From the NCBI GenBank assembly GCA_021234155.1, contig JAJEKV010000034.1, positions 5,346,028 to 5,410,027 on the forward strand: a stretch of DNA of 64,000 nucleotides. The letters are read 5' to 3'. Source of the stretch: Isoetes taiwanensis (Eukaryota > Streptophyta > Lycopodiopsida > Isoetales > Isoetaceae). Every line of letters begins with the position of its first letter. Position 1 is the first letter of the stretch. Shown here one piece after another: positions 1 to 29,428 of this stretch. The position numbers and the translations under genes are program-made. Under the pieces are notes generated by a model, which saw only the letters and a list, made by a program, of their open reading frames with translations, searched no databases and was not told the DNA's origin.

Positions 1-414
1 GTTTTTAAAAACAATTTTTTATAGTGTTATTGTAAATCTTCACAGAAGTATTAGATTCTCTCATACCTTATTATTTTTGAGGTGCTTCTATTTCATGCCA
101 TGATGCAGATTTAAAGATCTCCAGTATTTCGTAATATATCCTCATGCTCGTGTGGTCTTCCTCTAGTGTGTGTGCACGTGATTGCATCATACTCCCCAAT
201 TTCATCTTCACAAATCGAGGAAGAAGGGTTTAGTTACAGGTAGATATGGAATACAACCTCGGGGGGGATCAATGTATATGGTAAGTACAATTTTGTCCAC
301 CTATAGCTTCAAGTATTTGAATTCAATTTTAGTTTTTGTGATTTGAACGTCCCACACACCCCCAGCCAATATGGCAAATTCTAAGTACATAATTTTCTAT
401 TCCATACTTCTTCT
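1..414. other. Unassigned AT-rich DNA
   Basis: No coding, RNA or repeat signal that I can support. It leads directly into the decayed reading frames that follow. Confidence 0.5.
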
Positions 415-4490: not shown

Positions 4491-4492
4491 TT

Positions 4493-6086
4493 TTAAACTC
4501 TAAAATTTTCTACATTATTAGCTTGTTTTCCTTCTATACTTTGAACTTTTATCCCCCTTATGTCCATGCTCTTTTGACAAGTGAGGTTGGAGAAATGCCT
4601 GGCTTTGCAATTATGGCAGAAGTTTGGTAATCCTACCCATCTCAACTGGAGACTAATTTGTTTGCCAAAGAAATCAATGAGAGGGATAGAGGTGGAAATT
4701 GATTTGGAGATGTCAAGTTGGATAAAGCATTTCAAGGGCTTATATGGGGAAAACTCAGTGGAAATATAGGTGCCAATGGAGTTAAAGATGTTACAGAATC
4801 ATTCTTCACTCTAGTAGAGTTCACTCATGCTAACAGAAGCAATGAAGAATTTTTCAAAATCACTGATAGGAATAAAAGGGCTCCATTTCATAAAGGAAAT
4901 TTGGGAAGTGTTAAAGGTTGATCGACCAAGTTTGAGCATAAAGTTTGCAATTCTTTCATTGCCACATTCCATAAGAAGATAGGGATAATTAAGCCAATAA
5001 ATGGAATTTATGATAATTCCTTTGTGGAGTCTGCGAAGATGATCCCATAATTTCTCAATTCTAATTCCAACTCTATCCACACAAATAATGACAACAGTAG
5101 TGGAGAGAGATTCTATTTTTGAAGCAATTGAAGAATTGTTCAGGTGAATACCTTTGTAGAGTTGGAGATTGGGCTGAGTCAGGTATTGCACGTTGAAAAA
5201 TTCTAAATTACTTGTTGAGCAGGTCTGGGAGCACCGTAAGGGATGGAAACTCCATTAGCATCTAGAGGAGGAGTAACATTGTCAAGACTAGGATCCTTAG
5301 ACAGATTGTCCCATTGTGGAACATCAGAAGAGAAATGTTGCATTTCTTTGGAAAGGAAGTTTAAATCAGCAAAATTCCCAAATTTAATCACTTTATAAGG
5401 ATCAGAATAGAAAGAACTTAACTGGTTTGGGAGATCGCTTCTTTGGGATGAGGGAAGAAGCATAAACTTGTGAAGAAGAATAAGCGAATTAACATTTAGA
5501 GTTTTTGAAATATTTGAATTTTTTAAATTTTCAAGTTTTTTAGCCATAATGAGGAAAAACAGGGGACAGAAGGAAATTGACGAGAAGAATGACGAGGTAC
5601 AAGCAGAGAATGGGAAATTAGAGGAGAAAACGAGACAAAACTAGCTAGGTAACAGGTTGATTAGGTAGAAAGACCAAAGATTTGCCATAAAATTTAAAGC
5701 CAGTAAAAAATTCAAGCCTGGGATCATTCTGAGAAGACTCTGACTGAGATCTTTCTGTCCGTCCATTCACAAAATACCTGGAAGATTGCTGTAGGTGAGA
5801 TATTTTTCTTCCCTGTGAATTCAAGAAGCGAGGATTCTATAATTTCACTTTCAAAATCCCTTGAGCAGGGAACAAAGATGTATTCGGGTGTGAAGAGAGA
5901 GTCTGGGAATGTTTGCTTGAACACCAATTGATCCCAAAGTTCAGAGAATGATCCTTGAAGAAAACCACAGGTTATTCTCTGATCATGCTTCAGAATTATG
6001 AAGAAATTACCATCCATATATAGCTTGAGATGAGGGGAATCAGCTGGGTGCTGGGCCTCTACAAGGCCAGCAATCAAATTAGCCAA
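4493..6086 (-). pseudogene. L1-type LINE ORF1 (gag-like, DUF4283/zinc-knuckle) relic
   Basis: Minus-strand fragments at 5724-6086, 5203-5547, 4811-5191 and 4493-4735 follow one another in the order of a plant L1 ORF1 protein, an RNA-binding chaperone for retrotransposition. The central fragment contains MKWSPFIPIS, matching the W-x-P-F segment of DUF4283. The last contains FIQLDISKSI, then a Cys/His cluster (CHNCKARHFSNLTC), which corresponds to the zinc knuckle at the end of such proteins, although the histidine is displaced by one position. The pieces lie in different frames with stops between them, so no intact protein can be made. No matching ORF2 lies immediately downstream on this strand, so the copy is partial or rearranged. 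The assignment of the first two fragments rests mostly on position. Confidence 0.5.
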
Positions 6087-6721
6087 AGTTTCGATTCAAT
6101 GGCAAAATTTCTGATGAATTTTCATCAAGAAAGTGTTCGAATCGAATGAGACAAAAATTTCAAGAAAAATGGCGCATTTTTGCTGACGTGTTCTCCCATG
6201 TTGCTCCTCGCGTACACTACACTACATCACGAAAAATATCAGGGCTTCACCAGCATGGTATTAGATAGACACTACAGCTTCCAGGAAGAGTTAAAGATCG
6301 CCAGGATGGAGCGAATATTCTATGAGAAACAATATTTGGAGAATTACTATGGTAATCTTTAGAATATTCTTAAAAATGAACATTCGAGACATGATAACTT
6401 CATTTGATCCAACGGCAAGCAATGGTCCGATCGAAAGCACTGGTGGGAGAAGCAAGGTTTAAGAACCTGGAACTATTTGCCTACAACCACACCCCAAGGC
6501 ATCCTAGTCGTCAACAATGTTTATGCTCGAGCATATTCAAAGCCCCCCAAAAAATTACAAGAATTTCGAAGTGATATCGGAAAGCCGTATCCACCACGCC
6601 ATATTCGGTCGCCCATTCTAATGGAAATTTTGAGGGTTTTCGTGTAGCAGCTCCCAAAGAATCCCCTGTCCAATCTCCATTAGAGTGTGCTTCTGGCTAA
6701 TTAGAAGAATTGGGAGCCGTC
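6087..6721. promoter_or_regulatory. Upstream region of the Yippee-like gene
   Basis: Lies between a LINE relic and the Yippee-like start codon. It must hold the 5' untranslated region and probably the core promoter. I cannot place a TATA box or transcription start with confidence. Plant genes of this family may also have a 5' leader intron, which I cannot exclude here. Confidence 0.3.
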
Positions 6722-8274
6722 ATGGGGGATGCTGATCTAGTAGTGCTCAAAGGTCCACGGATTTATAGTTGCAGTAATTGTCGTAACCATGTTGCTGATC
6801 ATGATGATGCTATTTCAAAGTCCTTTCAGGTGAGAAGAATGCTATTTGAAGTTGTTAGAGTCTTGGCGTGTTTCTCTTTGCTTGCTTACCTTAGTAGAAA
6901 AGATTAATCGGTACATTATTTACAGCAAGTTTGATGTTTTGTTGAGATTCTAGCTTGCAGCCTGGAAGTATTGTTTGAAAATCTTGTGGTAAGTTGTAAT
7001 ATGATTATGGTGCGTAATATGACATGATAGCTTACAGAAAAACTGTTAAGGGGGCATGGATAATCCATACAATATGGAAATGCGAACTTAACAATTTTCT
7101 GGAATTCTGAGGTCACGAGGGGCTTAAGTTAACTTCTAGGGAAGCCGCCAAAACAGTTATAACAACCACCGAATCTATTCATAAAGATTTTGGGCGAGTT
7201 AGGAACTTGGATTAGTTTGCTGATTTTAATACGCAACTAAAAAGTATGCAGCAGGTTACCTTACATATCACCGAGCCCTATAATTTAGTGCTGGCTGACA
7301 AAAGAAGTTTGGTAGTTACATATTATATCACTGAGCCCTAAATATGGTCTGTGAAACACTGTCAATTAAGAGCAAAGATTCCACAAATGACAGGTTTGTC
7401 AATTTTGTTTACCTGCCTAGGATGTGAGAAAAAGTACAGAAACTAGGCTAGGAAGGATGTGTTGTTTCATGCTCTTATTATAAGAACAAAGGAATTGCTG
7501 TACCAAGCTGCCCTGAGGTTTGGGCTAACAAGTTCTTACTGAAATATACCTGCTAAATGCCTCCATCATGTGAATTGTCCCCCTGTTTTCTACAGCATGA
7601 CCTTGATATTCATAGCGAGATCTATAGCAGATTCATCTCTTGCAATTTCTACTGTTATTTTAGTGTACATCATTTACATCTTCTGTTTCACATGAATCAA
7701 ATGGAGGGTGCAATGCTTTCTTCTTAGGTATCATGCTGCCAACTGACATGCCATGTCGCATTGTAGGTCGAGATTTACATATTTGAATTGTTCAAATGGC
7801 TGCGAAAGTTATAGATGTGCGTGCCAGGCAGAATCTTTGCTTTCAAACCAGAGCTGATGCGCATGCTCTTTAAGGTTGCGCGTTATGTGGAAGAAGGCAG
7901 CATGAATGGTTTTGTTGTTATATTGCTTTTTCTTGTTTGTCAGATTTTTGCAACATATTTCTTTCAGGGTTGTGTTTACTATCTCCTTATGGTTTTTGCA
8001 TACGGTCTCTGATATACCCTAACAGTATGGTAATGTTTTATCACAGGGAAGGAATGGAAGAGCATATCTTCTTGCTCATGTAGTTAACATTATAGTTGGC
8101 CCACCAGAAGATAGACAGCTTATGACTGGGCTGCATACAGTGGCAAATATATTTTGTTCACAGTGCTTGGCAATTTTAGGCTGGAAATATGAAAAGGCGT
8201 ATGTTGAATCTCAGAAGTACAAAGAGGGGAAGTATATACTTGAGAAAACTAAAATAATGAAGGAAGATTGGTAA
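6722..8274 (+). CDS. Yippee-like zinc-binding protein (two exons)
   Basis: Coding exons are 6722-6829 and 8047-8274, separated by a 1,217-bp intron with GTGAGA at its start and TTATCACAG at its end. The intron is phase 0. The 111-residue product is a full-length Yippee/YPEL protein, a small conserved eukaryotic family built on one zinc-binding fold. Two CxxC pairs are present (residues 17/20, in YSCSNC, and 73/76, in FCSQC) with exactly 52 residues between them, as the family requires. Other hallmark segments are [14 protein letters not shown] across the splice junction, [18 protein letters not shown] and [12 protein letters not shown]. The methionine at 6722 is preferred because plant members start a few residues before the VxLxGPRIYSC segment. 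Animal members are linked to cell-cycle and centrosome roles; the function in plants is not settled. No frameshifts or stops: it looks functional. Confidence 0.93.
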
Positions 8275-9104
8275 TCATCACTGTACATAAAAGAATTTGG
8301 CAAGTGGCAAGGCTTGTATGTCTCGTGTAAAGATTAGCTTGCCCTATTACTTGTACATGATTCTGTCAAAATAACATGAGTCTCTGAATGCTGATGATGC
8401 ACCTTTGCAGTTCATGTTCTGTATATTTCAATGCGTGGATTTAAGGATCCATATAATTGTAAAGAACAGATTTTACATTTATCCTAAAAGCTTTGTTCGT
8501 GTATATTAGGTCAAAGTGCAAAAGTGTATAAAGATATAAGGTTAAATCGTAGGGAAAAACTCTGAAATACGTCTCGTCTCTTAGTTATTCGCGTGCCTCA
8601 AATTTTGGCTAAACAAATTTCAACCTCAACACTGTGCAGTTTAGCATGGATTTGCAGAGGCCGCGTAAAGGAGGGGGCGCTTGTTAGTATGCAACAAGAA
8701 CTACTCCTTCAGTTGATCTTGATCCGCTGGTTAATCCTCCACTCCTTTCACCAAGTGCATTGAGAACGGAATTTTTGAGTCTGGGATTTTTGACAGCATG
8801 GGAAAGTTTCTTTGAGAAGAAGCAACAATTTTGATCTGACACCGCCAACTGAGCAGCTGATGAACAGATGTTAGAAGCAATGGACAAATAGTTGCCGGAT
8901 GTAGCAAGAATATGGGCCTTATCGGATCTATGGGGTTAGAATATGGTTGCAAGGTAAAAAGAAGAGCCAACCACCACTTAAAACATTTGGAGATTTTAGG
9001 AAGGCTTTTAAATCAGATAACACAGTATGACCTAAACAACGGGACATGAAACAATCTACCAAATACACTTCTAAGTTCCCTTGTTGGTGCAAATGGAAGA
9101 ACTA
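8275..9104. other. 3' flank of the Yippee-like gene, otherwise unassigned
   Basis: Contains the 3' untranslated region of the upstream gene, whose end I could not fix. A minus-strand frame at 8684-8887 is open for 67 codons but has no recognisable family features. Confidence 0.35.
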
Positions 9105-9300
9105 ATTGAGATGAGATGAGATGAGATAAAACAAGATAAGTTTTTTAACATCGAGGGGAAGCTCTATGACATATATGATGAAGTACATGCAAAGGGCGAG
9201 AGCCCAAACTAAAACTTGGGGGCTAAACCCCATCTTAAGAATAGAAGAACATAAAATTATGAACAAAGATAACGAACCCCAAGAGAATAGTATATCCATA
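9105..9300 (-). mobile_element. Possible LINE 3' end relic
   Basis: Read on the minus strand, this stretch has a GGGGTTTAGCCCCC-type segment and a GGGCTCTCGCCC segment. It ends in a short tandem tail of TCTCA units (seen on the plus strand as GAGAT repeats at 9111-9127). A simple-sequence tail after a 3' untranslated region fits a non-LTR retroelement end. No protein domain is left, so this is a weak call. Confidence 0.3.
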
Positions 9301-13350: not shown

Positions 13351-14632
13351 CTATCCCCCTCCTACGACGGCGCAAGCCCTCGGAGCTGGAGCTGGAGCTG
13401 GAGTACTCAAACTTGGCTTACTCCAGTAACGTCGGTGAAACTCTGCAATTTTATCAGGAGCATTAGTCAGATTTGCAGTAGGCTCCCAGGTTCTATCACT
13501 TGGTGAGTATCCTTCCTAATCGATCAAATAATAAAGACGACGCCGTAGGGACTTGAAGCCCAAAATTTCTCGAACTTCAAATTCCTCGTGATCATTCATC
13601 TCGACTGGTGGTGGAGGTGGAGGTACTCGATTTGGAAATAGATTCGACATATAGAGTTCTAACAAAGACACGTGGAATACTGGGTGAAGTCGAACTAAGG
13701 GCGGAAGCTCCAGATGAAAAGCAGCATCATCGACTCGTTCAATGATCCGATAGGGACCCAAGCGCCAAAAATCGAGCTTGTTACAAGGACGAGCTGCCGG
13801 CAAATCCTGATACAAGAGCCAAACAAGATCGCCAACTGCAAAAGGAGGAGCATCTTGGTGGTGTTGATCAGCATGATAACGATTGGGCCTGGAGGAGATA
13901 GTGCTGAAGATCATCCTGGAGCATGCGGAGGTTCTTGAGTCTGTCCTCGACACTGAGATTGACTGAGTCATATCTAGGAGCCATGAAAGACCACTGGGGA
14001 TGCATGCCGAAATTAATAAAGAACGGTGTCTGGCCCAGGAAGCATTGACAGAATTATTGTAAGTGAATTCTGCCAGGGGTAGCCAGTCAACCCAGTCATC
14101 TTGCTGATAATTGATGAAGCATCGCAAATACTGCTCGTGTTTGATAAGTGCGCTCCACTTGCCCATTGGTCTCTGGGTGATGTCCAGAAGAGAGCAAACA
14201 TTTCACATACAAGAGTTGCAAAAGACGCTTCCAAAAATTGGCAACAAACTAGGGGCCACGGTCACTGGGTATCTGGTAAGCCATGGAGTCAAACCACTCT
14301 CGAAGCAAGAGAATAGCCATGGCTTCACTGGAGATAGAAGTGCTGCAAGGAATGAAATATGCCATCTTGGAAAAAAGGTCAACGACAACGAGGATGGCGT
14401 CATGGCCCTGGGAGGATGGAAGCTCGACAATGAAATCCACTGAAATGTTCTTCTAAGGACCGGCTGGAACTGGTAAAGGATGAAGCAGGCCATGTGAACG
14501 GTGCTTGGGAGCTTTTACACGACAACAAGTATCACATGGGCGTACAAAAGTCTCAACAGTGCAGCAGAGACCTCGCCACCAATAATCTCGAGCAATGAGT
14601 TCCAGAGTCTTGGCAATCCCAAAATGGCCGGC
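13351..14632 (-). pseudogene. Ty3/gypsy chromovirus integrase and chromodomain (C-terminal part)
   Basis: Minus strand, continuing the integrase that starts at 23900-24155 beyond a later insertion. In order: HFGIAKTLELIARDYWWRG with a CDTC pair (zinc-binding domain), MDFIVELPSSQGHDAILVVV (catalytic core with its first Asp), SDRG (second Asp), NYQQDDWVDWLPLAEF, LHPVFHVSLLE, and a chromodomain with EGYSPSDRTWEP ending in AEFHRRYW. NYQQDDWV, HPVFHVSLLE and FHRRY are typical of the Tf1/sushi/Tcn1 type of chromovirus. The coding sequence is broken: there are frame changes between about 14166 and 14440, and a TAG stands where the chromodomain Trp should precede EGY. A proline-rich tail and a run of CCPG-type repeats precede the stop. 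The product would insert element cDNA into chromatin; this copy cannot. Confidence 0.85.
14627..14632. repeat. Target duplication, left of the 9.3-kb element (position depends on TIR start)
   Basis: The left flank reads GGCCGGC before the GGGTAAAA end; the right flank reads CGGCGAG after TTTTACCC. The shared bases are CGGC, or CCGGCG if one G is given to the flank on each side. The coordinates are approximate by one or two bases. Confidence 0.6.
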
Positions 14633-14654
14633 GGGTAAAAGCATGAAAGGGTGT
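14633..14654 (+). repeat. Left 22-bp terminal inverted repeat
   Basis: Starts GGGTAAAAGCATGAAAGG and ends GTGT at 14654. All 22 bases match the reverse complement of 23878-23899. Confidence 0.92.
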
Positions 14655-14674
14655 CTATAAATGTAGCCTTTTTT

Positions 14675-14692
14675 GTACATATACATATGTAC
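14675..14692. repeat. Subterminal GTACAT/ATGTAC motif, left end
   Basis: GTACATATACATATGTAC is a perfect palindrome 20 bp inside the left TIR. It matches the GTACAT motifs clustered elsewhere in the element and may bind the transposase (inference). Confidence 0.6.
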
Positions 14693-14880
14693 CGAATGCA
14701 CATTTTTGGAATAACTGTCATCATGACCCGCTAGTAACTGCCATGATTAATGGCTATCCACTACTCGAACCCATAATTATCGGATTTTGAAATTCTTTCC
14801 CAAATTCTTTCTTGGTTTGCCTCTCGTTCACTATCCTTTGCCTTCTGCTTGAATTCGATCCACGAATTCTTCATCTAGCT

Positions 14881-16095
14881 ATGGCCCCAAAACGCCCCCG
14901 GATGAGTGCTTGCTCATCACCACACCCTAAGCAAGAAGCCGATTGCTTCCGGCGGTGGAATTTTACCTCCAAGGAGTTTACGTTTGGGTTCCGAGGTGAT
15001 CCAAGCCAAAGACCTCCCGTGATAAACATCAGAGGCCCACATACCCAACCTAGAGATGGTTATGAGCGAGGTATGGGGTGAAGCTCTAAAAAGCAGGCGA
15101 GGATTCAAGGAAGGGAGAATCCAAGCGCATGGAAAGATGATTTTTAAATATTATGAATTGGTTTATGGCAAGAAGCGGGTTACAAACCATTATATTTCTA
15201 CCTATTTTTTGCCGAGCATTTGCTCTTCACTTGAAGGGACGGCTTGTTGATTGGATGGACGTGGCTAGGACCGCCAAAGATCTTGCCAAAACCCTCATTT
15301 CAGACGTTACAGAGGACCCTACAACAGGTAAATCCTCAACTATCAAACAGGACATCGTATTGCAGTGAGAATATTAGAGCCTTGGGTTATTCTAGATCAG
15401 ATGTTGACACAATAAAGCAGTTACTTAAGCATGGGTTGGAGGAGAAAACTAACCTATTGAATGAAGTAGAAGCACTGGAAGAAAAAAGGAGGGATGCATT
15501 GAAGGTCATCACCGGATTGAGGGTAGAAAGGATATGCTATCAGAAGATCCGCAGCAGATCTGCCGAGAAAATAGATGAGACAAAGCAGAATTTGACAAAT
15601 TGTCCCGGGATCCTGGCTGGAAATCAAGTTATCTTGAGTGTTGAAGTACAAGTTGGAAGACTTGGTTATGAGTAGACATGATAAAGAGCAAAGACTCTTC
15701 TAAGCTAGAAATTGGTTTGCGGGGAAGCAACTAAAGAAATTGAAAGGCATGAAATCTCAATTGAACAAGCAAAGGAAAAACTTAATTGCATTGAATTGGT
15801 TCAGCAAAGGCATTCACTGATTTTTGGATTTCATGGGGAGAGCGGGACCTATTGTTACGCACCGAGGCCCTACCCCCGTAGGAGCTACTTCTATAAAGCA
15901 GTTCATCACATTCGGTTCATGTACTGTTGTGGCCAAGGCTTTGGCAAAGCGGGTTTGTTCTTTGCTAGCTCCATGCGAGAGATGCTTATTGCCTCTTACG
16001 CTTGTGTTATCCAGTCCATGAAAGGCAATTGCATAAAAGGTTGCATCCGGGATGAGGGCATTCGAATTCAGCTTGGTTTCCCTCTTTGTGAAAGG
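14881..16095 (+). pseudogene. N-terminal exons of the transposon's plus-strand gene (coiled coil)
   Basis: The first ATG is at 14881 (MAPKRPRMSACSSPHPKQEA), after a pyrimidine-rich leader. A Pro-rich basic start is followed by frame changes. At 15360-15560 there is a heptad-like, Glu/Lys/Leu-rich segment (DTIKQLLKHGLEEKTNLLNE, then VEALEEKRRDALKVITGLRV). At 15712-16095 comes a second charged helix and then RHSLIFGFHGESGTYCYAPR. A GTATGC donor follows CCTCTTTGTGAAAG at about 16095. Stops and frameshifts mean this copy cannot be translated through. I do not recognise the N-terminal domain; coiled-coil oligomerisation is an inference from the heptads. It belongs with the basic segment and the Ulp1-like core downstream as one multi-exon gene. 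Confidence 0.45.
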
Positions 16096-16149
16096 TATGC
16101 ATTGCTCTCAACTAATTTAAACTTATATTTCTCTTAATTCATATTTGTT

Positions 16150-16625
16150 ATTGTAATCCGCATAGTTCTACATGTATGGCTTTTCGGTGCATTGCTATTC
16201 CTTGTACATGTATAACTTTTAGTGTACATCCGTAGTAGCAGAGGTACATAGGCATATATTTGCTTATTTATTGATGCTTTTATTTTTGAGCTTGGATTTG
16301 CAGGTTGTATCGGTTGTACATGTCTCTAATGGAGTCTACATCGCAAATAGATGTACATGCATTTATCTTTAGAGTGCATCCGTAGATGGATTCATAAGTA
16401 TGTGTATTTTTACATATATGTGCTTTTTTTTGGGCATAGATCTACATTCCCTAACTGGATACACTGGGTACATCCGGGTACATCCGGTACATCCGGGTAC
16501 ATTGAGGTACCTCTATGTACATTGAGGAACATGTACATGTACATTTGGCTATAGTTAAATGTACTTACGTACATTTGGTACATTTTATGTACATGAAATG
16601 TACATGCTTAGCGAGAATGTACCAG
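16150..16625. repeat. GTACAT repeat cluster 1 (intronic)
   Basis: More than fifteen GTACAT/TGTACAT motifs occur here, including GGTACATCCG repeated head to tail near 16465-16500 and ACATGTACATGTACATTTGG near 16527. The cluster lies in the presumed intron between the coiled-coil exons and the basic exon of the plus-strand gene. Confidence 0.8.
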
Positions 16626-16875
16626 ATATTTCTCATTAGTTACATTTTTCATGTTCTTTTATGTCTATTGAAATTTAGAACATTTGTTTGTTTTTGATGA
16701 GGAAGTTCCTATCCTATCGAAGCGGCTTTAATGGTCGATGTTCTTGAGCCATCATGACGACTCTTTCTGATTTTATTGAGCATAATAAGGGCCAGAATCA
16801 ATCAGACCCTCAACCTTCCAGCTCCGGATCACCAATGACATTTCTGATTGCCGAAGAATAGAACCATGAACAGCG

Positions 16876-17550
16876 GTGCCTCCTCGAACATGGCAAAGTG
16901 AAGTTGAGGAAATTGAGAGGATGGCACTTGAGAAAGCTAAAGCGATTGCGGTCGCGAGACCCTTCAATGGCTCACGCAACGAAACTCTTTCATCACCAAG
17001 TGCTAAATTAGTAATTGGAGAAGCTAAGAAAGATTCAAACACGTCTCAAGCATCATCTGCGAGGTCCCGATTACGGACTGTTACAGAAGAAGCTACAAAG
17101 GACACAGAGATCAGATTTTATCGGGGAGATACGAGGGAAGAGGAAGTTGAGTTGGTAGTTGAGTCCACTCCAAAGAGGAGGCAAAAGAATCTTCGGTGAT
17201 GGCACTCCAAGAGGAAAAAAACAGGCAAAATCTCCAAAGAACAAAAAATGTCCTCCGAAAAGAAAATCTCCGGGCAAAAAAAAGTGCCACCACCACCTAG
17301 AAAGAGGTATGTCCAAGATGAACTAATTTTGTTAAACATCTCGATTTATGATAATTAACCACATTTTTTTTTGTACATAGGACACGATCACGAGGCTATG
17401 AAGGAAGCCGATCCCGATCCTTCCGAAGCTGGCGGAAGAGGAAGAGGATCTACAAGAAAATATTGATGTGATAACAAATAAGGTGCAAGAAATCCACGTA
17501 AGATGCCGCGCGGTGATGAATTTACAAGGTGAGTAATATACAATTGATTA
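16876..17550 (+). pseudogene. Basic, NLS-rich middle exons of the transposon's plus-strand gene
   Basis: The frame at 16876-17199 begins MPPRTWQSEVEEIERM, carries Ser/Arg-rich sequence (SSARSRLRTVTEEA) and ends in ESTPKRRQKNLR. The next frame is strongly basic (PRGKKQAKSPKNKK, then PPKRKSPGKKK) up to a GTATGT donor near 17306. A further exon starts after TTTGTACATAG near 17381. It reads either RTRSRGYEGSRSRSFRSWRK or, in another frame, a coiled-coil LPKLAEEEEDLQENIDV, and ends at a GTGAGT donor near 17529. Nuclear localisation or DNA binding is plausible from the basic stretches. The frame conflicts show decay. Confidence 0.45.
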
Positions 17551-17599
17551 CAATAGATATATTCTTTTTGCTAATCTTTGTTGTTTCCTTGTGCGGTTT

Positions 17600-18436
17600 A
17601 GTGAACCGCCCGAAAAAGGTTGGTTCCATTCACTCCTTATAGGGACTGTCCTCCTAAGCCCCGCACCCTCTATCTTTCAAAGTGATGTTGACGAAGTTAC
17701 CTTTGGAAGTCGGACTTGACCTCTAAGATGGTAGATGTCTATGGGAGGTAGGCTAGCATTTCAACATATTTATGTTATTTCATTCCCTAAGTCACTCATC
17801 TTATGTATTAATATGTATTCTGGATTTGTGTGCGAGGTACCTTTGTAGCGATCTTCCATCGATTGGAAACACAAGTTTTTACGGTTCGAACCAACACCTT
17901 CGAATTTTGTGAATTCCCTCAAGAACGGGCGGATGCACTGAGAACACTAACATAAAGGAAGGGCTGGATGGCATTTTGATTGCAAGATGCCAATACATAT
18001 TTGTTCCAATTCGCAAGGCCCAATTGTGGCATTGGCAATACTTGTGCTTGCTGATCCGGTGAAAAGCTCTTTTCCATCTATAGCTAGCCCAAGTATACAG
18101 ATCCTCTCTCTGTCAAAGGCTATGTACCCGATGCTAAAGTGGTCGAAGTAAATATGAGTTTCGTTTTTGTTTTTATGATTTGATTATTCTCATATTGCAA
18201 TTTCTTATGCTTGATTTATTCTCACATTGCAATTTTGCGAGTTTCATAAGCTTGTGATCAATAACATGATGCTCGGATCCAACGGCTTAAGCCATGGTAG
18301 GAAGAACTTTGATGCTCCGTGTTACGTCCTAAAATGCGAAACTAGTACCGGCAACCCTTGCATGTACATTGTGGCTTACATGCACAAATTCATAGATGCC
18401 GTGGTTGATGCAATGACGAAAGCTCCATTTTTGTAA
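17600..18436 (+). pseudogene. Ulp1/C48-type cysteine protease-like core in the transposon
   Basis: After an acceptor GCGGTTTAG at about 17602 the frame reads EPPEKGWFHSLLIG. Further on, DLTSKMVDVYGR resembles the LNDxxIDFY start of Ulp1 domains. At 17975-18055 the sequence reads GILIARCQYIFVPIRKAQ then LWHWQYL. A hydrophobic strand with VPI just before HW is the Ulp1 pattern (catalytic His at 18030-18032). One frame over, ILVLADPVKSS continues the strand after HW. At 18341-18400, TGNPCMYIVAYMHKFIDAV matches the catalytic Cys helix (DCGxYVxxYM in the family; Cys codon 18359-18361), with Asn-Pro in place of Asp. An intron near 18150-18230 separates His and Cys. Such proteases cleave SUMO-like conjugates and are carried by several plant and protist DNA transposons. 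This copy is frameshifted. Confidence 0.55.
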
Positions 18437-20107
18437 GTAGAACATGTTATTTTCCTATTAGTTATTTGTTGGTATAGTCCTCTAATACTTGTGCACCATG
18501 CGAGATGACACCCAGTTGGTTCAGCGATGCCTATGCCAAGTCACGGAGGGATCATCTAATGGAGGCATTAATTGTAGAAGGCGAGATGAATATACAAGGA
18601 TTGTTCCTACACGGGGTAGATAGTCCCTTTGACTTGTTTGTAAATTACAGTTTTGTATGAGCCATGCTCAGGAGCTTCTTTGTACTCAATAAGTAATGAA
18701 AAAATTAATTTATTTGTCTCACTTACACCTGTGCAAATAAAAATCGTGTAATTATCAATGTGTTTTCTCAATTGTGTGATCTGAAATGTAATTATAAATT
18801 GTGAATCTCAAGTGTTTTCTTTGTTGTGGTGAATCATCTAATTGAGGGAGAAAGCTCATTATCTTTGACTTAAATTACGTGTTGGGCAAGAGTGTGCACA
18901 AGAATGAAAATATTAACTCAAGATACCAACAGATCCGGAAAGATGAGCTTCGGTTTAATATAGGAAGTTTTTTTTTCTTGCGGGCCGGGGTTAGCATCCT
19001 TTGTTAGCATTTGTAAGAGAAGGGTTTGATGTTGCCATCTGGTCTTCACTCACTTCTAAAAATCTTCAACCAATTGTGGAACATATTTGTGATGCTTTTT
19101 CCATAAAAGCTGAAGTTTGTTTCTGACGGGGGGGCGGTGTTGGACGGACGCCACACAAAACCCCCTCTTGAACCTCAAAGGGGTTGTTTGTGAAACCATT
19201 AAGCGTGGTATGGAAAGAGTACCCCAGTACTATGGACATACGGTTACGATCGATTGACGAAAGATACAAATCCACTTTGAATCTGTAGGAAGCTACATAT
19301 GTCCTTTCTCTTGGACACGGATATTAGCCGGTGACAGATTGCTTGTCATGGAGCTCATTCCATGGCTTAATGGATTCAAAATGGCGAAGATGGTATAGTT
19401 TATGTGAAAGAGCATCTAATGACTAATGCGGCCGGATGGCATATCGGAGGCGTGGTGGAGCAGTTTTTTTGGCGGCAAACTATGGCAGCAACTTGGGTGC
19501 TCTTTGCCTAAATTTAGTCAATATCTGGGAACAAGGAATGGAGAAAGCGCCATCATGTTATTGGCCTCTCGGTGGCCCATTGTTGGTACAGACTTTGACT
19601 GATGTACAAATTCAAATGTTATGAATATATGTATCAAAGTTTTTGTTCATTGCACTTGAGTACTCTTTTTTCTTGTCTTTCTTATTGGTACAATTATGAG
19701 TGTGTATACATAATTAAGTGATCTTCATTTGCTTTGTAGATGAATGGTGAAACACAAAAGACTATTAAGAAACTAAGAGATAGAGTTCTCTTTGCACCCA
19801 GAGGTAATACAAACCAACACAAAGCCGCAAGTACATAGGGTTGGGGACCGATTATCGCCTCTATACTGTTGTTCCTGAACTTTGGGAAAAGGTTGAGCAA
19901 ATTGAAAATTATGAGGAACGAGCAACCATGAAAGGTATATTGGCAGCAAATCACTTGTTGCACAACCCTTGGGGGAAGGCACGTGTCCTGGAAGATGCAG
20001 GCCATGTAGGATGGAAAGGTTTGCCGATTGGCACGTGCTATAGAAACCGCATGGACTCTTTTGCTTTAGAGGATATCTCTTCACCCCTCTCGGGCTGGAA
20101 GACATGA
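18437..20107 (+). pseudogene. C-terminal fragments of the transposon's plus-strand gene(s), unrecognised
   Basis: Plus-strand fragments include TPSWFSDAYAKSRRDHLMEA near 18510, ending at a stop by 18660. Others are a frame at 19436-19624 with AANYGSNLGALCLNLVNIWE and one at 19841-20107 with YTVVPELWEKVEQIENYEER and KARVLEDAGHVGWKGLPIGT. I recognise none of these. They may be the end of the Ulp1-like gene or a third gene of the element. The last stop is about 480 bp from the end of the convergent transposase-like gene. Confidence 0.3.
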
Positions 20108-20357
20108 TGCAATAGTCATAAGATATCGGGCTCCTCTTGACATTTTGAAGCTTGGTCATGAATTATGAGCCATGCTCATTTTCGGGTGTGTTGTATTTAT
20201 GTCCACAATATAAATATATCAACCATTTGTACATGAAAACCTGTCCATTTCTTATCTTTGCCATGACTGAAACCATTTTTAATGTTTATGCAATTCAACT
20301 TTCTTGTGTTCAATTCTAATCAACTTACACTTAACAAATTTTTATAATATTTCTGGA

Positions 20358-20420
20358 ATGTACAACAGATGTACATAAGATGTACATTGTTGTACATCTT
20401 ATGTACATTGATGTACATAA
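20358..20420. repeat. GTACAT repeat cluster 2, between convergent genes
   Basis: Six or so GTACA/TGTAC motifs are packed into about 60 bp, with an inverted arrangement around TTGTTG (CATAAGATGTACA facing TGTACATCTTATG). It could fold as a hairpin and sits where the two convergent genes would terminate. Confidence 0.75.
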
Positions 20421-20588
20421 TGCACTTCTGAAGTAGTCCAGTTCTTCAGTTCTTATAACAAAGTATTACAATATTTCTGGAAAGTACTACAGATCTGACT
20501 TAGTCCATGTCATCTACAATTCTTTGGAAGTTGTGATAACAATGTCTCATGGACTTCATCGGCAAGTGAAATGTCAGTGCTTGCCCCT

Positions 20589-23500
20589 TCACTTGTGTTT
20601 TACTTTCTTGAATGGGATCGAACCCCAATCACGATTCTCGCGGTACCAAAACATTCTTAGTAGGAAGCGGTTTATACTTATTGTGGCGACTGGGATTAGT
20701 TCATAATATTGTCCTTCAATAACACTAGTGCCAGAGTATTCATTTCCATAGTCATCAATTGAATCTTCTTCCAATGCATGCTTTTCCACGGGTGCACATG
20801 AGAACATAGTATGAAACACCTTCCATTGTGCGGTCTTTGCAAAAGACACAAATACATCCAAAGCTTGACTACGATTGTCATCTAAACCCGACCTTGTCCT
20901 CTGCATACAAAACATCCACATCATTTTCGGCTTCAACACGAGAGGCAATATGATGCGTGGGCTCCAAACGTTTTAGAGACCATTCTCCACAATGTTTAAT
21001 GTTCTCACAATTCAACCAATTGAAGTTAATGCAAGCATCACAAAAGCACGAGAGTGGTGCTGTGATAGCAACTTTGTTGGATCTGCTTTGGGTTTATAGT
21101 TGACCGCGAATGTATCTGCTTGAGTACCGGGTAAAGTCTTGCAATTGAATGCTTGCTACCTATTCACATCTATTTTCCAACCTCACAAAACACCCTTTCA
21201 CAATCCGATTCCTTGGCCCTTAAAAGCGCACAAGGCGTTTTACACTTTTATCTTTGGCATGCCATTTTGTTTTCTCGCTCACTCTCAAGCCACAACTTTG
21301 CTATACCAGCCTCGCCATCATGTGTGCCTTTCCCATGGTCAGATCCAAAGAAATTCCATATCACTTTCGAATTTTATTTTCAACATGGTATCTCTGATTC
21401 CATACCATAATGCGTCTGAGATTTGAATTGAGATGCACAACCATCCGACCACACATAATGAAGGTTTATGTGTCCACCTCCATTATTCTTAAGCCACCCC
21501 AAATGTAATTTAAAACCATGTTGCACAAAATGAGTGTCATGCTTCGTCATCTGAAACATAGAAATGCCTTTTTTTTTTAAGCTTATCTTCTATTTTCATC
21601 ATTGAAATATGGACCAAAATACTAATTTGATCACGATTCCAATGCTCGGATTGCACCGTCCCTCGGGTTTCAATGTGTAGTTCTCTGCAAAGTCAACAAC
21701 GGACAACACACTATTATCGGGGTTTCTCAACACATCTTTTAAACTGTTTGCTCGGCCCGGTGTCTTTTTGTAAAGTTATGATTCGTAAACTTAGCAAGCT
21801 GATTTTTCATGTTCTTTAACAAAGCAGATGCTTTGTCATTCGATCAACTAATCTAAGCCTTACGGATGTACCTTTTTGGATGGCTCATTGACATATGCAT
21901 ATACTTGCCGGTCCACATTCGAATTCCATCTTCCTTGTTTGGATGGATGTCTAATTTCTTCACTCCACATTCATCACACATTAAGCCTTTGATGCATTTT
22001 TAGTTTATGCCATTCATCCGTCACATATTTCCATAAACTGTTGACCTCCACAAGATACTAACATTATCAAAAGTCTTCTTGTTTGCTTGACATACTCCAT
22101 TGTTTTTCTTTGGGATGCACGGACACCTTGCAGCGGCAAAGTGCAATTAACATGTAGGGATCTCCTCATATCATTGAAGGCCTTTACAGACAGACCGCTT
22201 TTGCTCATGTTTGACACAACAACATGTGTTTCTCTCCTTCAATTTCCTTATGCAATCAGGTTTTGGATACTCGAATCGTGAAGGCGAATTTTGGTATCGG
22301 GATTACGATATACAAACTGTTGATAAAGCTCGGACCGCAATAACAAAAGCATTAAAGACCATGTTAGCAAAATGATGTCGGCAACCGGATGCCAAAAGAG
22401 TAGTGAACTATACTATTGTACAATTAATGTATGTTCTATGTACATAAAATGTCCATCCAACAGTTCCAGCGATCATTCTTGTACATCTAATGTACATCTA
22501 ATGTACATCGGTACATCTAATGTACAGACCAACAGTTCCAATCGATCCATTCTTGACATCCAATGTACATCCAATGTACATCTAATTAATGTTCCAATAT
22601 TAGTACATCACATTAATGTTACAATATTAGTACAACTAATGTACATATGTCCGATTTGTTTGGCTTCATTACGAAAAGTACACTAAAATATAAAATGATG
22701 TAATTTTGATATTCAAGTACATGTAAATGCTTTTTGCATGGACATGTAAGTGTTAATGGATGTACATCTAAAAAGTACCTAATAGCACATCACTGCAAGA
22801 TTTCTGCTACTATGTAAACAATGTAAAATGCAATACATTTCATGAAAACCATGTGTATTCATTAACAGGTCACTCGGAACAGAACTAGAATGTACAAAAG
22901 AAAGTCATGAAAGAATTTTGGAAGAAAACATAATCTCCAAAACTGAATTGATTCAATTACAAGAGCAAACCTGTGAGATATCAAGGTATTGTATTGCTTG
23001 TGTTCTCCTCTTCATGACATCTCTAACCTTTGGTGAAACTTTGGTATTGTCAAGCCAAAATTCACGAACCTGACATTTGATTGAATCATCGATTCTATTT
23101 GATCTTGGCATCCTTCCTGCCAAAGCCCATACATTTGCTCCACTTAATGACATTATCTTCCTTCTTGCTGCAGCTTTGGATAAATTTCTTGGCTGTATCT
23201 TTAGAAATTTTGAAGAAACATTCTTGTTTATATCTCCTTTTTTTCTAACAATCATTGATAACAGTGAATGTTTTGCAGCCAATTTATCTTTGCTATTAGC
23301 AGACTTTACTTCTTGAAGCCCATCTTTCAAGTTTCTGATCATTGATTTCATAACAATAACTTCGGAAGGATTTCCAATTACAGGTTCGAAAACAGAAAAA
23401 AGCCTGTCATCTTGCAACAAACGATCACAAAAAACTAGTCTTTGATCTGGACGGCGTTTGCCAAAGAATCGAGGATGCAATCCACCGACAATCAACATAT

Positions 23501-23590
23501 TTGCTTTATTTGTTTTGTGGCATAACACTGGCCAATGTCGGCATACTTACGCTTAGAACCATCACTTCCATTGGAATTCTCACCCTCCAT
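20589..23590 (-). pseudogene. DDE/RNase H-like transposase gene of the 9.3-kb element
   Basis: Minus strand, start codon at 23588-23590 (MEGENSNGSDGSKRKYADIG). A largely open N-terminal region (22953-23528) has NLSKAAARRKIMSLSG and REFWLDNTKVSPKVRDVMKR. An interval with GTACAT repeats (intron-like) follows. Then come a Cys-containing middle (22014-22217), DFAENY (21677-21694), SDGCASQFK (21425-21448), WNFFGSDHGKGTHDG (21314-21355), LSCFCDACINFNWLNCEN (about 20998-21050) and VIEGQYYEL near 20720. The order matches uncharacterised animal and plant transposon proteins that I recall with DFxENY...SDGxxxQFK...HGKGxxDG. The acidic residues are probably the catalytic triad (inference). Several frameshifts and stops break this copy. 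The reading frame at 28294-29428 is a relative. Confidence 0.68.
22427..22770. repeat. GTACAT repeat cluster 3 (inside the transposase-like gene)
   Basis: About a dozen (T)GTACAT motifs, many as CTAATGTACATC units, lie between the N-terminal and middle coding parts of the minus-strand gene. The location fits an intron. Confidence 0.8.
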
Positions 23591-23810
23591 GAACAGATTG
23601 AAATTGATTTGTATTTCTTGTAGATTCAATTGGCATGTGTTTGCTTCTGGAATTCGTTCGGTGTTCGTCCTGTGAAAGGGGGGAATTTCGGAAAGGGAGG
23701 GACGGATCCATTCGAATTGGTTCGGTGGTTAACCAAGAATTTCGGGGGGAATGTCAGGGATGATCTTGCAATCATTGCATATCTGACACAAAACGACAAA
23801 CTATAGTATC

Positions 23811-23880
23811 TTGATGTACATCTAAAATGTACCCCAAAAAAGCACAAATTCGTCCTTCAATTCAGTACGATGTACGTACA
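23811..23880. repeat. Subterminal GTAC motifs, right end
   Basis: GATGTACATC, ATGTACCCC and GATGTACGTACAC occur within 70 bp of the right TIR, mirroring the left end. Confidence 0.6.
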
Positions 23881-23899
23881 CCCTTTCATGCTTTTACCC
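23878..23899 (-). repeat. Right 22-bp terminal inverted repeat
   Basis: ACACCCTTTCATGCTTTT followed by ACCC, the exact reverse complement of 14633-14654. Confidence 0.92.
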
Positions 23900-24155
23900 C
23901 GGCGAGAGGAGAATCATGACAGGACTGCAGAACTTGAAGTCGGGGAGCACTATCTGGAATATCCAGAAGTCCATTACGGAACAGAAGTCCATTTTGAGCC
24001 CCAAAATGATCATAGTTCAACCACATTTGCCGGGAAGATGATGCTAAGCAAAACGATGCAAATATACCCTGTGCCAAAAGATCAAAAAGAAGAGATGCTC
24101 GAACAGACTCCAACAAGGATGTATCATGAGGCCTCTCGAACAAAGTGATGGCCAT
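23900..24155 (-). pseudogene. Chromovirus integrase, N-terminal zinc-binding part
   Basis: Minus strand. It reads NGLLFRNGLLDIPDSAPRLQ then VLQSCHDSPLAG, the usual entry into the HHCC zinc-binding domain of Ty3/gypsy integrase. The reading frame breaks at LAG, where the 9.3-kb transposon is inserted. The partner beginning GHFG lies at 14632 and below. Upstream residues (ITLFERPHDTSLLE) probably belong to the RNase H-integrase linker. Confidence 0.8.
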
Positions 24156-24912: not shown

Positions 24913-26531
24913 TGTGACGTTCTAGGGAAATATACGCTATATATACATATATTTCTGGGTCCATCACTATACAAGTCTATTTCATAGCCTTGTATACCTT
25001 AGGAAGTGCCATGCGTGCATATCTAAGTTATATATGTAACTTAGATAACCTTAGGATAAAACCCATGTCCCACATGACCTTATCTTATTGGGCAACCGCC
25101 ACGTGGCTATATCCCATTGGAGCCACGTGTCATCCCATGTGAACCCTAACCTATATAAACCTAAACCCTAACCCTAGGCCTCTTTTCCTAGCCCTATCAC
25201 CCTGGGAACCTTCTTCGCCCTCGAAACCCCATTTTGAGCACCGTTTGCTATGGCATAGCCTAGTGCAGCAGCCCCCAGAGTGTGTGCACGATCTCGGAGT
25301 GAGCCCGGCTTCGACCACTTCGTGGAGCATGGAGACGCCAGGAATGGGAGGGAGCGCTTCGGGAGCAGGTATTTGGAGTAGTGTCCATAGTAGTTCATCT
25401 GGAAGTTAGCACTCCAGATGGATCAGTATGTTGTATCTAGAGTAGAGCCATCCTAGAACCCTTATTCAACATCTTGAACCCTAATCAAGGAACCCTAATT
25501 GTAAGTTAGATATGTATGATTAGGTTAAGATGTTCTTATGATGATTATTATGATATGATGTTATGTGATATTGGTTGATCATGTTTGCTTCTCTTGTAGC
25601 CTTACTTAGTAATGCTCCTAGTTAGACCCTTAGTTCCTATTATTATTGCGGCCTGTGTATAGGAACCCACCGTGCTAGGGGGGCTATGATGTGACTCAGC
25701 ACTACACAACGGGGCTAGAGGAGATATGGAGGGAGGGTCCCTGCTGAGCGTGGCTACTGGGGACCCCATAGTGGGCTAGGCTTATAGTCGGTCACTTCGT
25801 GTGGGCCGAGCATGTGTCTGACACCTCCTGGGGCAATGGTGTTGCCCTGCCTCTCAAAAGTTGCAGGTGTTGGGCTGACTCTTGTTTTGGGGGGTAAGTC
25901 GGGGACAAATCGTGTGTCGCCACGATTCTCTAGCCGCCCGTGGGACCTCTAGACCCCGGGAAGGGGAGATACAACCCTTCCTGCCTCGACGGACTGGGGA
26001 GATGCAACCTGGAGTAGTCTCGATGGGTGATGCCATGAGATTGCATATCCGGAAGGCTAGAGTCATGCCAGAGCCCGATCTAGCCCATCTGCAAAGTATG
26101 CACAGGAGGGGCGGATGGAGTAGTCAACCCTAGCCATTGTCTATAGCCAGCCCCGCCAGTGTTATGACTCGGTCTGCTCTATCTTGAGACCTAGTCGTCG
26201 GTCTACTTTCCCCAAGAGTCTAAGCCTTGGGTAGGAGCTCCTCATGTTTTACGGTATATGTTTATCTTTGATGTGTCTCTGCATATGTGGATGTGCTACC
26301 CTTCGAGGTAGCGTGATGCATAGTTATTGCTAGTTCTGACGATGTTTATGCTTCCGCTGTGATAGGAGCCCATAGGGGAAGGGTATGCAAGACACCTCCG
26401 TGTCCCCTTCCCGCACTAGGGGTACCATGGAGTGCGGGATAGACGAAGGGACCGTGCGATCGGAGGACCGGATGGGGGATTTCCTACGGAGTGTACGGCC
26501 GGGCGCCATATATTTTGTAGGGAGCGTCACA
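24913..26531 (+). mobile_element. Solo LTR, 1,619 bp, of a second chromovirus family
   Basis: It starts TGTGACGTTC and ends GGAGCGTCACA, so its ends form the 7-bp inverted repeat TGTGACG/CGTCACA with canonical TG...CA. It is flanked by a 5-bp target duplication, GATAG (24908-24912 and 26532-26536), and lies inside a reverse transcriptase that becomes continuous without it. The first 352 bp match 27942-28293 with about twenty mismatches and no length change. The right part (about 25818-26531) matches 62955-62267 in reverse. Reading frames within it are incidental. Confidence 0.88.
25152..25172 (+). promoter_or_regulatory. TATA box and telo-box-like motif in the solo LTR
   Basis: CTATATAAAC is followed at once by CTAAACCCTAACCCTAGG. 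A TATA box with an AAACCCTA (telo-box) motif just downstream is a promoter arrangement known from plant housekeeping genes. Here it probably marks the LTR transcription start. Confidence 0.5.
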
Positions 26532-26700
26532 GATAGATGATCACAAAGAGATCCAAAGACTCCCAAAAAACATCGTTCGCCATGTGCTGAAAGACTGCTG
26601 GGGCATTGGTAAGGCCGAAAGGCATGACGATATATTCGAAATGACCATGCTGAGTTTGAAAGGCTGTCTTTCACTCATCATCTTCCCTGATCCGAACAAG

Positions 26701-27600
26701 TTGTCCAAAATGGCACATTTTGTGCCTTGTAGGACCACAGATACGGCATTAGATACTACCGTTCTATTTGCAAAGGAGATCTTTAGACTCCATGGCATGC
26801 CTCGTGAGATTATCTCAGATAGGGATTCTAAGTTTATGAGTGCTTTTTGGCAGGATCTGTATCACCCGCAGACCGACGGTCAGACGGAGCGAACTAATCG
26901 TATTATCGAAGATATGTTAAGGAGTTATGTGTGGAACAAGCAGTCCAAGTGGGATGATTTCATCCACTTAGTAGAGTTCGCCTACAATAATACGAAGCAG
27001 GAGTCATCCCAGATGTCTCCTTTTATGATCAATTATGGGTACCGGTGCCTGACCCCCGATACTTGGCACAACCCAGTGTCAAAGGTGGAAGTTTCCCAGC
27101 AAATGCTATCAGATATGCAGCAGCTGGTTGAAGAGGTAAGGGGATATTTGTTGGCAGAAAGAAGTCGGCAAAAGAGCCTAGCCGACAGGCACAGGACCGT
27201 AAGGGAGTTCAAGGTAGGCGACAGTGTGGTTGAAGATCAAGGTGAAGCAAGCCAAGCTTCGAATAGGGAATTGCAAGAAGCTTGCTCCCAGGTGGGCAGG
27301 CCCCTTTAAGATTTTGGAGTGAGTGGGCACCCAGGCCTACAAGCTAGATCTTCCAGCGCACCTCAAAGTCCATAAGGTCTTCCACGTGAGCCTCTTGAAA
27401 AGGCACAACCCTAACCCTGATGAGGTTTTGGAGAATCCAACCCTGTTGGAAATGACGGAAGATTGTGCATGAATTGCTCCTTGATAAAGCATTCAAGAAG
27501 ACCAGGAGGTCTCAGTTCCTCCAATTTTTGGTCAAGTGGAAGCACTTGCCCGTGGAGGATGCGACGTGGGTATTGAAGCAGGACTTGGAGAAACAATAAG
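26701..27600 (+). pseudogene. Second Ty3/gypsy chromovirus: integrase core to chromodomain (plus)
   Basis: The plus-strand coding starts abruptly at LSKMAHFVPCRTTD (the first catalytic Asp is lost). It continues with EIISDRDSKF (second Asp) and YHPQTDGQTERTNRIIEDML (catalytic Glu), then LVEFAYNNTKQESSQMSPF, and after a frameshift near 27235 HLKVHKVFHVSLLKRHNP. A chromodomain with KTRRSQFLQFLVKWKHLP and ATWVLKQDLEKQ ends at 27600. About a dozen residues normally present between FWQDL and YHPQ are missing in frame. Sequence details differ from the minus-strand element, so this is another chromovirus lineage. It runs into its own polypurine tract and LTR. Everything 5' of the integrase is absent. 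Confidence 0.85.
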
Positions 27601-27941: not shown

Positions 27942-28293
27942 TGTAACGTTCCAGGGAAATATACGCTATATATACGTATATTTCTGGGTCCGTCACTATA
28001 CAAGTCTACTTCATAGCCTTGTATACCTTAAAAAGCGCCATGGGTGCATATCTAAGTTATATATGTAACTTAGATAACCTTAGGATAAGACCCATGTCCC
28101 ACATGGCCTTATCCTATTGGGCAGCTGCCACGTGGCTATATCCCATTGGAGCCACGTGTCATCCCATGTGGACCCTAACCTATATTAACCTAAACCTTAA
28201 CCCTAGGCCTCTTTTCCTAGCCCTATCACCCTGGGAACCTTCTTCGCACTCGAAACCCCGTTTCGAGCACCGTTTGCTGTGGCATAGCCTAGT
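27942..28293 (+). mobile_element. 3' LTR, first 352 bp only
   Basis: Begins TGTAACGTTC after the polypurine tract and matches the solo LTR base for base in length until GCATAGCCTAGT. It then stops abruptly and the transposase-like reading frame begins. A TATA-like CCTATATTAACC remains near 28180. The remaining roughly 1.27 kb of LTR is missing, so a rearrangement happened at 28293/28294. Confidence 0.85.
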
Positions 28294-29428
28294 ATTCTTG
28301 TGCACCTCACATATAGAAGGGATCTTGAGACACAAGAAATGATCAAGGAAGAACATTTTTATATATTTGATGACAGAAAACATGATTCTTTGTTTGTGCA
28401 GCATTGCTTTCTCTTATACAATCATTGGATGCAAGAGAAGGAAATCACTTTGAAGAAGCATTATGTCTTCTCAGATGGTGCAGCCTCACAATTCAAAGGC
28501 AAAAAATCATTTTACTTTGATGCTAGATTCAAATCTTTAACAGGTTTAGACATGATGTGGAACTTTGGGTGCTCTGGCCATGGGAAGGGAGAACATGATG
28601 GTGCAGGAGCAGTAATAAAGAGGGCTTTGAGAGCAGCACAGTTGAAGGGCAGCAAGATGACCAATGCACACGAGGTGGTGGAATGGCTAAAGCAGTACAT
28701 GTCAACAGCAGCACCCACAACATATAAAAAGAAGATTCAAACTGTAAGTAGAACTTTTTGGGAGGTTGAAATAGGACAAGTGGACAGAAAAAATCAGTGG
28801 GAAGCACGTCCTATTGAAGGATCTAGAAACTTTAATTGTTTCCATGGGTGTTCAAATCACATGACACATTTACAGGTCAGAAACCTCTCTTGCTTTTGCA
28901 CATATTGTTTAGATTTGAATTGGGAATCTTGCCCCAATGTATCATATACTAAGAAGTTTGAACTAGTTGTGGTACAGCCCATCAAAGCTATTGTTGAAGA
29001 AGAAGTACATGATGAAGGAGAAGAAGCATATATTGGCAGCGTTGACTTATATAGCATGCAAGTATCTATAGGTGATGTCTTTGCAGTGGTGGCTCCAAAT
29101 AACAATCACGAGAATGTGAAATTCTACCTTATCCTATGTACCAAAGCTAAGTACTTGGTGTTAGAAGACTTTGTAGATATGCAAGGGCAGAAGTTTGTGA
29201 AAGGGGATGAGGTCATAGAAGGGACATACTATGAGAAGTTGGTGAATTGTAAATCCAGCTACAAGTTTTGTAGAGGAAATAAAGCAATTGTTTATGCCAC
29301 TCAAGTTGCAAAGAACAAAGTCTAGGTTGGTTCAAGCAAAGCACGTTGTTAAGAGGGGAGTGGTTTACACTCTAAGTGCCAAAGAAGAACAAGATATTCT
29401 AGAGAGGCTTCCCACGTTGTTGGAATAG
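28294..29428 (+). CDS. Transposase-like protein (SDG...HGKG family), N-terminally truncated
   Basis: Open without a stop from the LTR junction to 29325, at least 341 residues. A one-base shift then continues the protein to about 29428 (LSAKEEQDILERLPTLLE). No ATG stands at the 5' end; the frame begins inside the protein. Features (counting from the GTG at 28300): YIFDDRKHDSLFVQH (21-35), SDGAASQFKG (58-67), WNFGCSGHGKGEHDGAGAVI (87-106), LSCFCTYCLDLNWESCPN (196-213), and KFYLILC...VIEGTYYEKL (274-314). These align in order with the minus-strand gene inside the 9.3-kb transposon. By analogy it is the catalytic half of a DDE-type transposase; the first acidic motif is lost. It is the best-preserved transposon frame here and sits downstream of an LTR promoter in the same direction. 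Confidence 0.68.

Follow-up and report, generated by a model that had tools for sequence, protein, structure and literature searches.

A Ty3/gypsy integrase frame in the genome of the quillwort Isoetes taiwanensis is interrupted by a 9.3-kb sequence with inverted ends. An initial annotation, made from the sequence alone, had described this sequence as a two-gene DNA transposon of an unnamed type. The locus thus raises the questions (i) whether it holds a discrete mobile element; (ii) which protein would move this element and what else is encoded by it; and (iii) whether it belongs to a named superfamily. The stretch analyzed, referred to as the window, comprises 64,000 nucleotides (GenBank assembly GCA_021234155.1, contig JAJEKV010000034.1, positions 5,346,028 to 5,410,027 of the forward strand). 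We consider it quite probable that a high-copy cut-and-paste family of I. taiwanensis, most probably belonging to the Sola superfamily and having the mechanism and cargo described below, is represented here by a decayed copy. The element is delimited by the following features (window positions):

14633..23899, no strand: whole DNA transposon, 9267 bp
14633..14654, plus strand: left terminal inverted repeat (TIR), beginning GGGTAAAAGCATGAAAGGGTGT; its last 21 bases are the genome-wide search pattern
23878..23899, minus strand: right TIR
14629..14632: left copy of the target site duplication (TSD), CGGC
23900..23903: right copy of the TSD, CGGC

The two TIRs are complementary at 22 of 22 positions, with GGG at the termini, and deleting the element together with one CGGC in silico yields a single open Ty3/gypsy integrase frame of the H2C2 type, LQSCHDSPLAGHFGIAKTLELIARDYWW; the left half of the interrupted integrase matches Pfam Integrase_H2C2 with an E-value of 1.7e-13. 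Since joining the flanks with one CGGC restores this frame, the ends of the element are exact. Searching the entire genome at the DNA level returned 48 matching stretches, the window itself being one, and four copies besides that in the window align in one piece over query positions 34–9300 (90–92% identity). Twenty stretches, representing 19 further copies, were retrieved, and nine of these copies have both ends. Perfect 4-bp TSDs flank seven of the nine (AAAT, TGCA, AAAT, TATA, CTAT, ATCA, AGCA; chance probability of at least seven of nine, about 5e-16), while the remaining two, L020 and L022, have no matching 4-bp flanks. Both long elements obtained from the genome-wide end search are likewise duplicated at their flanks (TGCC, ATCA), and, with the window element counted, a 4-bp TSD is found in 10 of 12 long elements. 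The TSD is 4 bp long and has no fixed sequence.

With up to three mismatches allowed, the 21-base end pattern was found at 3,186 and 3,231 places on the two strands of the genome (6417 in total), and a reversed control at 20 and 32. The first 100 places listed are all exact matches. Among these, 26 facing pairs separated by less than 25 kb account for 52 places; 10 of the listed pairs span 252–265 bp, 14 span 9.1–9.8 kb, and two are longer. A discrete, multi-copy cut-and-paste DNA transposon is thereby confirmed. The initial annotation was accurate as to the perfect 22-bp TIRs and the exact repair of the integrase, and the genome search with TIR pairs that it proposed yields thousands of ends, pair classes of about 9.2 kb and about 260 bp, and second copies. 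It had left the TSD at 4 or 6 bp; the 4-bp length stands, and a 6-bp duplication with a GG start is ruled out by the 4-bp duplications of the other copies.

Three left ends (L029, L030 and L031, at C2:47004, 51595 and 56148) share an identical 20-base flank and are spaced 4.55–4.59 kb apart; here, an end of the element lies within a tandem repeat or duplicated unit. ATGTAC and GTACAT cluster at window positions 20345–20420 and 22426–22640, in presumed non-coding parts of the element, and occur 69 times in its 9,267 bases versus 32 times in the remaining 54,733 bases of the window.

When a short element, L032, was used as a query, 40 of 724 candidates were scored, namely L032 itself and 39 others, and these 39 scored relatives are 258–264 bp long and 90–91% identical. 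Together with the short facing pairs, these relatives indicate that the family has a class of miniature inverted-repeat transposable elements (MITEs) with the same ends, and that so many copies have the same length suggests recent amplification. MITEs of 260 bp with the ends of the element were located at G000 C4:57670–57921 and 39 further places listed.

The candidate transposase is encoded by gene 2, which consists of the following parts:

22971..23590, minus strand: gene 2 exon 1, N-terminal region, homologous to the Calypogeia protein P0055
20500..22334, minus strand: gene 2 exon 2, with a cysteine-rich part, the putative Asp-Asp-Asp (DDD) catalytic core and a C-terminal part
21275..21754, minus strand: predicted DDD RNase H-like catalytic core, with VVDFAENY, SDG and HGKGTHDG

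Together, the two exons would encode about 820 residues; in the window copy, gene 2 is interrupted by stops and frameshifts. At the presumed splice acceptor, the 13 copies that hold this stretch have CAG (8 of 13), CAA (3 of 13) or, in the window copy and L009, CGG. Neither the transposase pieces nor five of their relatives matched Pfam above its curated cut-offs. In a homology search, an open stretch of 297 residues from copy L013 returned eight proteins at E-values of up to 10, seven of them between 8e-42 and 2e-19. The query and the eight proteins were combined into a profile, which identified 241 proteins at E ≤ 0.01, of which the 120 listed contain no Pfam domain. The organisms named among the relatives listed are the moss Ceratodon, the liverwort Calypogeia, the conifers Cryptomeria and Taxus, and the alga Klebsormidium. 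Exon 1 aligns with Calypogeia P0055 in the N-terminal part of that protein (29% over 155 residues, E-value 2e-15).

For one homologue, P0009, structure prediction gives an RNase H-like integrase core (a confident model, not an experiment). Three catalytic-site aspartates are invariant in all 45 relatives aligned, and the core motifs are also present in the element's own copies. The model of P0055 (pLDDT 71.6) confirms only the core, its first 240 or so residues being mostly of low confidence. Foldseek returned a single match at E ≤ 0.001 against the PDB (NurA; E-value 7.8e-4, probability 0.41) and a single one against viral models (an unnamed protein; E-value 1.2e-4, probability 0.21), both superposing poorly. 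None of 57 pattern matches in viral contigs is a relative. The model points to gene 2 encoding a DDD transposase with an integrase-type core, and the DFAENY...SDG...HGKG transposase described at the outset is confirmed.

Two further genes of this kind were noted. On the plus strand of the window, positions 28288–29325 hold a much better preserved 345-aa open frame of the same transposase family (44% identity to P0009, E-value 7e-82), which has no DNA similarity to the element's transposase gene and begins directly where a gypsy long terminal repeat (LTR) ends. In L026, a related plus-strand transposase gene beginning GGGTGCTTTT lies at about 1200–6280 inside a copy of the element that has also lost sequence around it; beside the nested gene is a minus-strand frame with a cysteine pattern that, by eye, is RING-like.

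The plus strand of the element carries additional coding regions, referred to as cargo:

14881..18657, plus strand: gene 1, low-complexity or coiled-coil-like at its N-terminus, followed by SENP/Ulp1-like exons; start and stop placed by eye
17819..18474, plus strand: putative SENP/Ulp1-like core, YIFVPI..., with CPKMPETSTSNPCMYI... in other copies
18805..19599, plus strand: NIF/FCP1-like HAD phosphatase domain, motif I DLN, not DxD; its own gene or the 3' part of gene 1
19718..20165, plus strand: terminal exon 3' to the NIF domain, of no known family

The frame of gene 1 is broken in the window copy. Its SENP/Ulp1-like stretch had no match in Pfam and only two in the PDB at E-values of up to 10, both to SENP7 (0.8 and 0.96). 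The alignment with SENP7 consists of two co-linear stretches: YIFVPI...LAI against YIFVPV...LAV, and, around a cysteine, CPKMPETSTSNPC against CPKVPKQDNSSDC. We take the aligned histidine and cysteine of SENP7 to be its catalytic residues. The cysteine is kept in 15 of 15 copies; at the histidine position, none of 14 copies has a histidine in the aligning frame (13 have asparagine and one, the window copy, isoleucine). A different frame contains a His-Trp pair, and in the window copy YIFVPI stands in that frame. The similarity, weak as it is, makes a SENP/Ulp1-like identity plausible for a core that probably lacks the catalytic histidine.

The NIF domain is more clearly recognized. Matches to PF03031 were obtained with L014 (E-value 7.9e-13; 48.8 bits against a cut-off of 21.8), L017 (1.1e-12) and L019 (9e-9), and the domain is homologous to this family; the solved structure nearest to the NIF stretch of L017 is UBLCP1 (E-value 2.4e-5). 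Motif I is DLNSV or DLNYV in all 15 copies holding the stretch; active NIF/FCP1-like enzymes have DxDx(T/V) (PMC7281111, in part), and judged by its residues the element's domain has DxN in place of the catalytic DxD. No homologue of the stretch was found at E ≤ 0.001 among 212 candidates scored, no splice donor of fitting phase linking the NIF exons to gene 1 was found by eye, and among the literature matches listed no paper names both DNA transposons and NIF/FCP1. The NIF domain had been missed by the initial annotation, so that its two convergent genes may in fact be three, although a second, convergent gene region is indeed present. The putative Ulp1-like protease core of that annotation gains the weak co-linear SENP7 matches but has no Pfam match and has probably lost the catalytic histidine.

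Such a cargo might consist of pieces of host genes acquired by chance, in the manner of Pack-MULEs, and have no role. The broken frames in the copies examined, the absence of a catalytic residue from both cargo domains in the copies, and the lack of a significant sign of selection on the cargo all favor this explanation, which we regard as quite possible, if somewhat short of an even chance. However, all 15 copies holding the NIF stretch have the same cargo at the same position; given the absence of homologues among the candidates scored, this stretch was not copied recently from any ordinary phosphatase among them; and UBLCP1, the nearest solved structure, is distant.

The broken frames also bear on the age of the family. 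Eleven copies differ from their majority by 1.8–5.9% substitutions. Relative to this majority, the window copy has 474 substitutions, together with 139 indels of 1–2 bp in 9.3 kb, and the number of such short indels per copy ranges from 12 (L019) to the 139 of the window. As the I. taiwanensis assembly was built with Nanopore reads (PMC8566536, in part), some of the short indels may be assembly errors. If most of the frame breaks had this origin, the element would be younger and more intact than it appears, and both the ratio of short indels to substitutions in the window copy and the recurrence of MITEs of exactly 260 bp would be in line with this. L019, with just 12 short indels, nevertheless indicates that errors are not uniform, and the substitutions point to real age; we therefore hold this explanation to be possible but rather doubtful.

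Which superfamily the element belongs to was judged by comparison with published descriptions. Sola elements have a DDD transposase, a 4-bp TSD, a length of mostly 2–9 kb and TIRs of 11–1124 bp (PMC10741241); the element has a predicted DDD RNase H-like core (the prediction being that for P0009), a 4-bp TSD, a length of 9267 bp and a 22-bp TIR. Sola1 is listed for Physcomitrella and is also present in Capsicum (PMC9033089, in part), Sola elements are reported from the Azolla genome (PMC6786969, in part), and 56.7 Mb of Sola-2 from Cryptomeria (PMC11539532, in part), a conifer that also encodes P0066 of the element's transposase family. On these features, the element is probably a member of the Sola superfamily that differs by its cargo rather than a categorically new type, and the label "unnamed type" is probably wrong, as TSD length, transposase, size and host range are all published Sola features.

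Several observations weigh against this reading or parts of it. The Sola assignment was made by published description, and 4-bp TSDs are also made by Ginger1, Ginger2, Kolobok and piggyBac. In published Sola2 elements, the TIRs measure 12–21 bp, the 4-bp TSDs are AT-rich and the transposase has 888 aa (PMC3627910, in part); the element's TSDs extend beyond the AT-rich sequences of AWWT type given there. Sola is said to occur in bacteria (PMC10741241), and in a prokaryotic species collection none of 33 pattern matches is a relative, in a scan that catches only relatives bearing the pattern. A further aspartate, D221, is as invariant as the three of the triad, so that the choice of the triad rests on the predicted model. 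L032, the only MITE of which both flanks were seen, lacks matching 4-bp flanks, which speaks against mobilization in trans. Finally, single-copy changes are spread nearly evenly across codon positions, and the synonymous excess in variants shared by at least two copies is small and not significant (141:298 versus 214:569 for single-copy changes, p 0.088); selection on the cargo is thus not demonstrated.

The element could instead represent a distinct, unnamed DDD superfamily with 4-bp TSDs that is Sola-like in gross features only. The absence of any Pfam family above the cut-offs, both in the transposase pieces and in five relatives, the absence of relatives among the pattern matches in viral and prokaryotic contigs, and a likeness known from published features rather than reference sequences are in keeping with this. 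The element does, however, show the gross Sola features that could be tested, bacterial relatives excepted, and Sola is annotated in moss, fern and conifer genomes while the named relatives of this family include a moss and conifers; we regard a distinct superfamily as unlikely. The fuller version, in which a separate DDD lineage abundant in non-flowering plants carries a SENP-like and NIF-like pseudo-enzyme module for evading silencing and moves its 260-bp MITEs in trans, appears to us similarly improbable.

Other named superfamilies were rejected one by one. Ginger1 and Ginger2, defined by TGTNR termini and a gypsy-type integrase, disagree with the GGG termini and with the lack of an integrase Pfam match in the transposase. 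Kolobok and piggyBac duplicate TTAA, but none of 10 TSDs is TTAA and there is no piggyBac Pfam match. MULEs have TSDs of 7–12 bp versus 4 bp here (PMC10741241), and no MULE Pfam match was found; CACTA/EnSpm elements have CACTA or CACTG ends and 3-bp TSDs versus GGG ends and 4 bp (PMC10741241), again with no CACTA Pfam match. That the element is of a CACTA, MULE, Ginger, KDZ/Plavaka or piggyBac/Kolobok type with a Ulp1 gene is hardly credible: Ulp1-like cargo is known from MULEs (PMC13317346, in part), the Ginger paper names Ulp1 21 times, and three of these groups (Ginger, Kolobok, piggyBac) make 4-bp TSDs, but the GGG ends are neither TGTNR nor CACTA, none of the 10 TSDs is TTAA or CCGG, and Pfam gave no match to an integrase, MULE, CACTA or piggyBac family, KDZ/Plavaka being judged by Pfam alone.

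For a Sola element, we propose the following mechanism. The gene 2 protein would bind the 22-bp ends, presumably via its N-terminal part, and excise the element by its Asp-Asp-Asp RNase H-type active site; insertion at staggered cuts 4 bp apart, with little sequence preference, would then give rise to the 4-bp duplications. The same protein may move the MITEs of about 260 bp in trans. The plus-strand SENP/Ulp1-like and NIF/FCP1-like cargo would be dispensable for the chemistry of transposition. More likely, it would bind host proteins that are SUMO-linked or phosphorylated, which could aid escape from silencing.

The locus thus provides a well-bounded, probable Sola family with thousands of ends in the quillwort genome, plus a derived MITE class. 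Its transposase relatives, 241 proteins at E ≤ 0.01, constitute a Pfam-less family that merits a curated model and for which the predicted structure, a confident model, shows an integrase-type core. Should the cargo be functional, it would be a case of SUMO- and phosphatase-related folds taken up by a plant transposon to serve as binding proteins, in parallel to the anti-silencing genes of VANDAL elements.

Elsewhere in the window, an LTR pair (24913–25264 and 27942–28293; 352 bp, 94% identical) bounds a compact plus-strand retrotransposon with a frame at 26521–27309 that is integrase-like by eye and has no Pfam match. On the minus strand, the long open frame at positions 59313–60218 belongs to a plant gene whose function is unknown (DUF868, E-value 9e-107).

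Among known systems, Kaonashi/KIU-carrying MULEs (VANDAL) of Arabidopsis are likewise plant DNA transposons with a Ulp1-like domain in an accessory gene, and the VANDAL accessory protein VANC counters silencing (PMC13317346, in part). VANDAL MULEs differ in their TSD of 7–12 bp (PMC10741241) and in their transposase, and in the present element a NIF domain stands beside the weakly recognizable protease domain. Signaling or epigenetic enzymes are likewise the cargo of fungal IS3EU elements, DNA transposons that carry TET/JBP and alpha-kinase genes, the alpha-kinase gene being oriented opposite to the transposase (PMC12730594, in part); superfamily, host and cargo all differ from those of the element. 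UBLCP1 and the FCP/SCP phosphatases share the PF03031 homology of the NIF domain, but the second aspartate of their DxDx(T/V) is asparagine in 15 of 15 copies of the element. With Sola (Sola1 of Physcomitrella, Sola-2 of Cryptomeria, Sola2 of Dictyostelium fasciculatum), the element shares a DDD transposase, as predicted, a 4-bp TSD, a size of 9 kb, short TIRs, occurrence in non-flowering plants and a similar length of the transposase (about 820 residues from two exons, close to the 888 aa given for Sola2); it differs in the composition of its TSDs, which is mixed, and in its NIF- and SENP-like cargo, absent from the Sola descriptions consulted. What is new here is this cargo, a NIF/FCP1-like domain with DxN alongside a weak SENP/Ulp1-like core that probably lacks the catalytic histidine.

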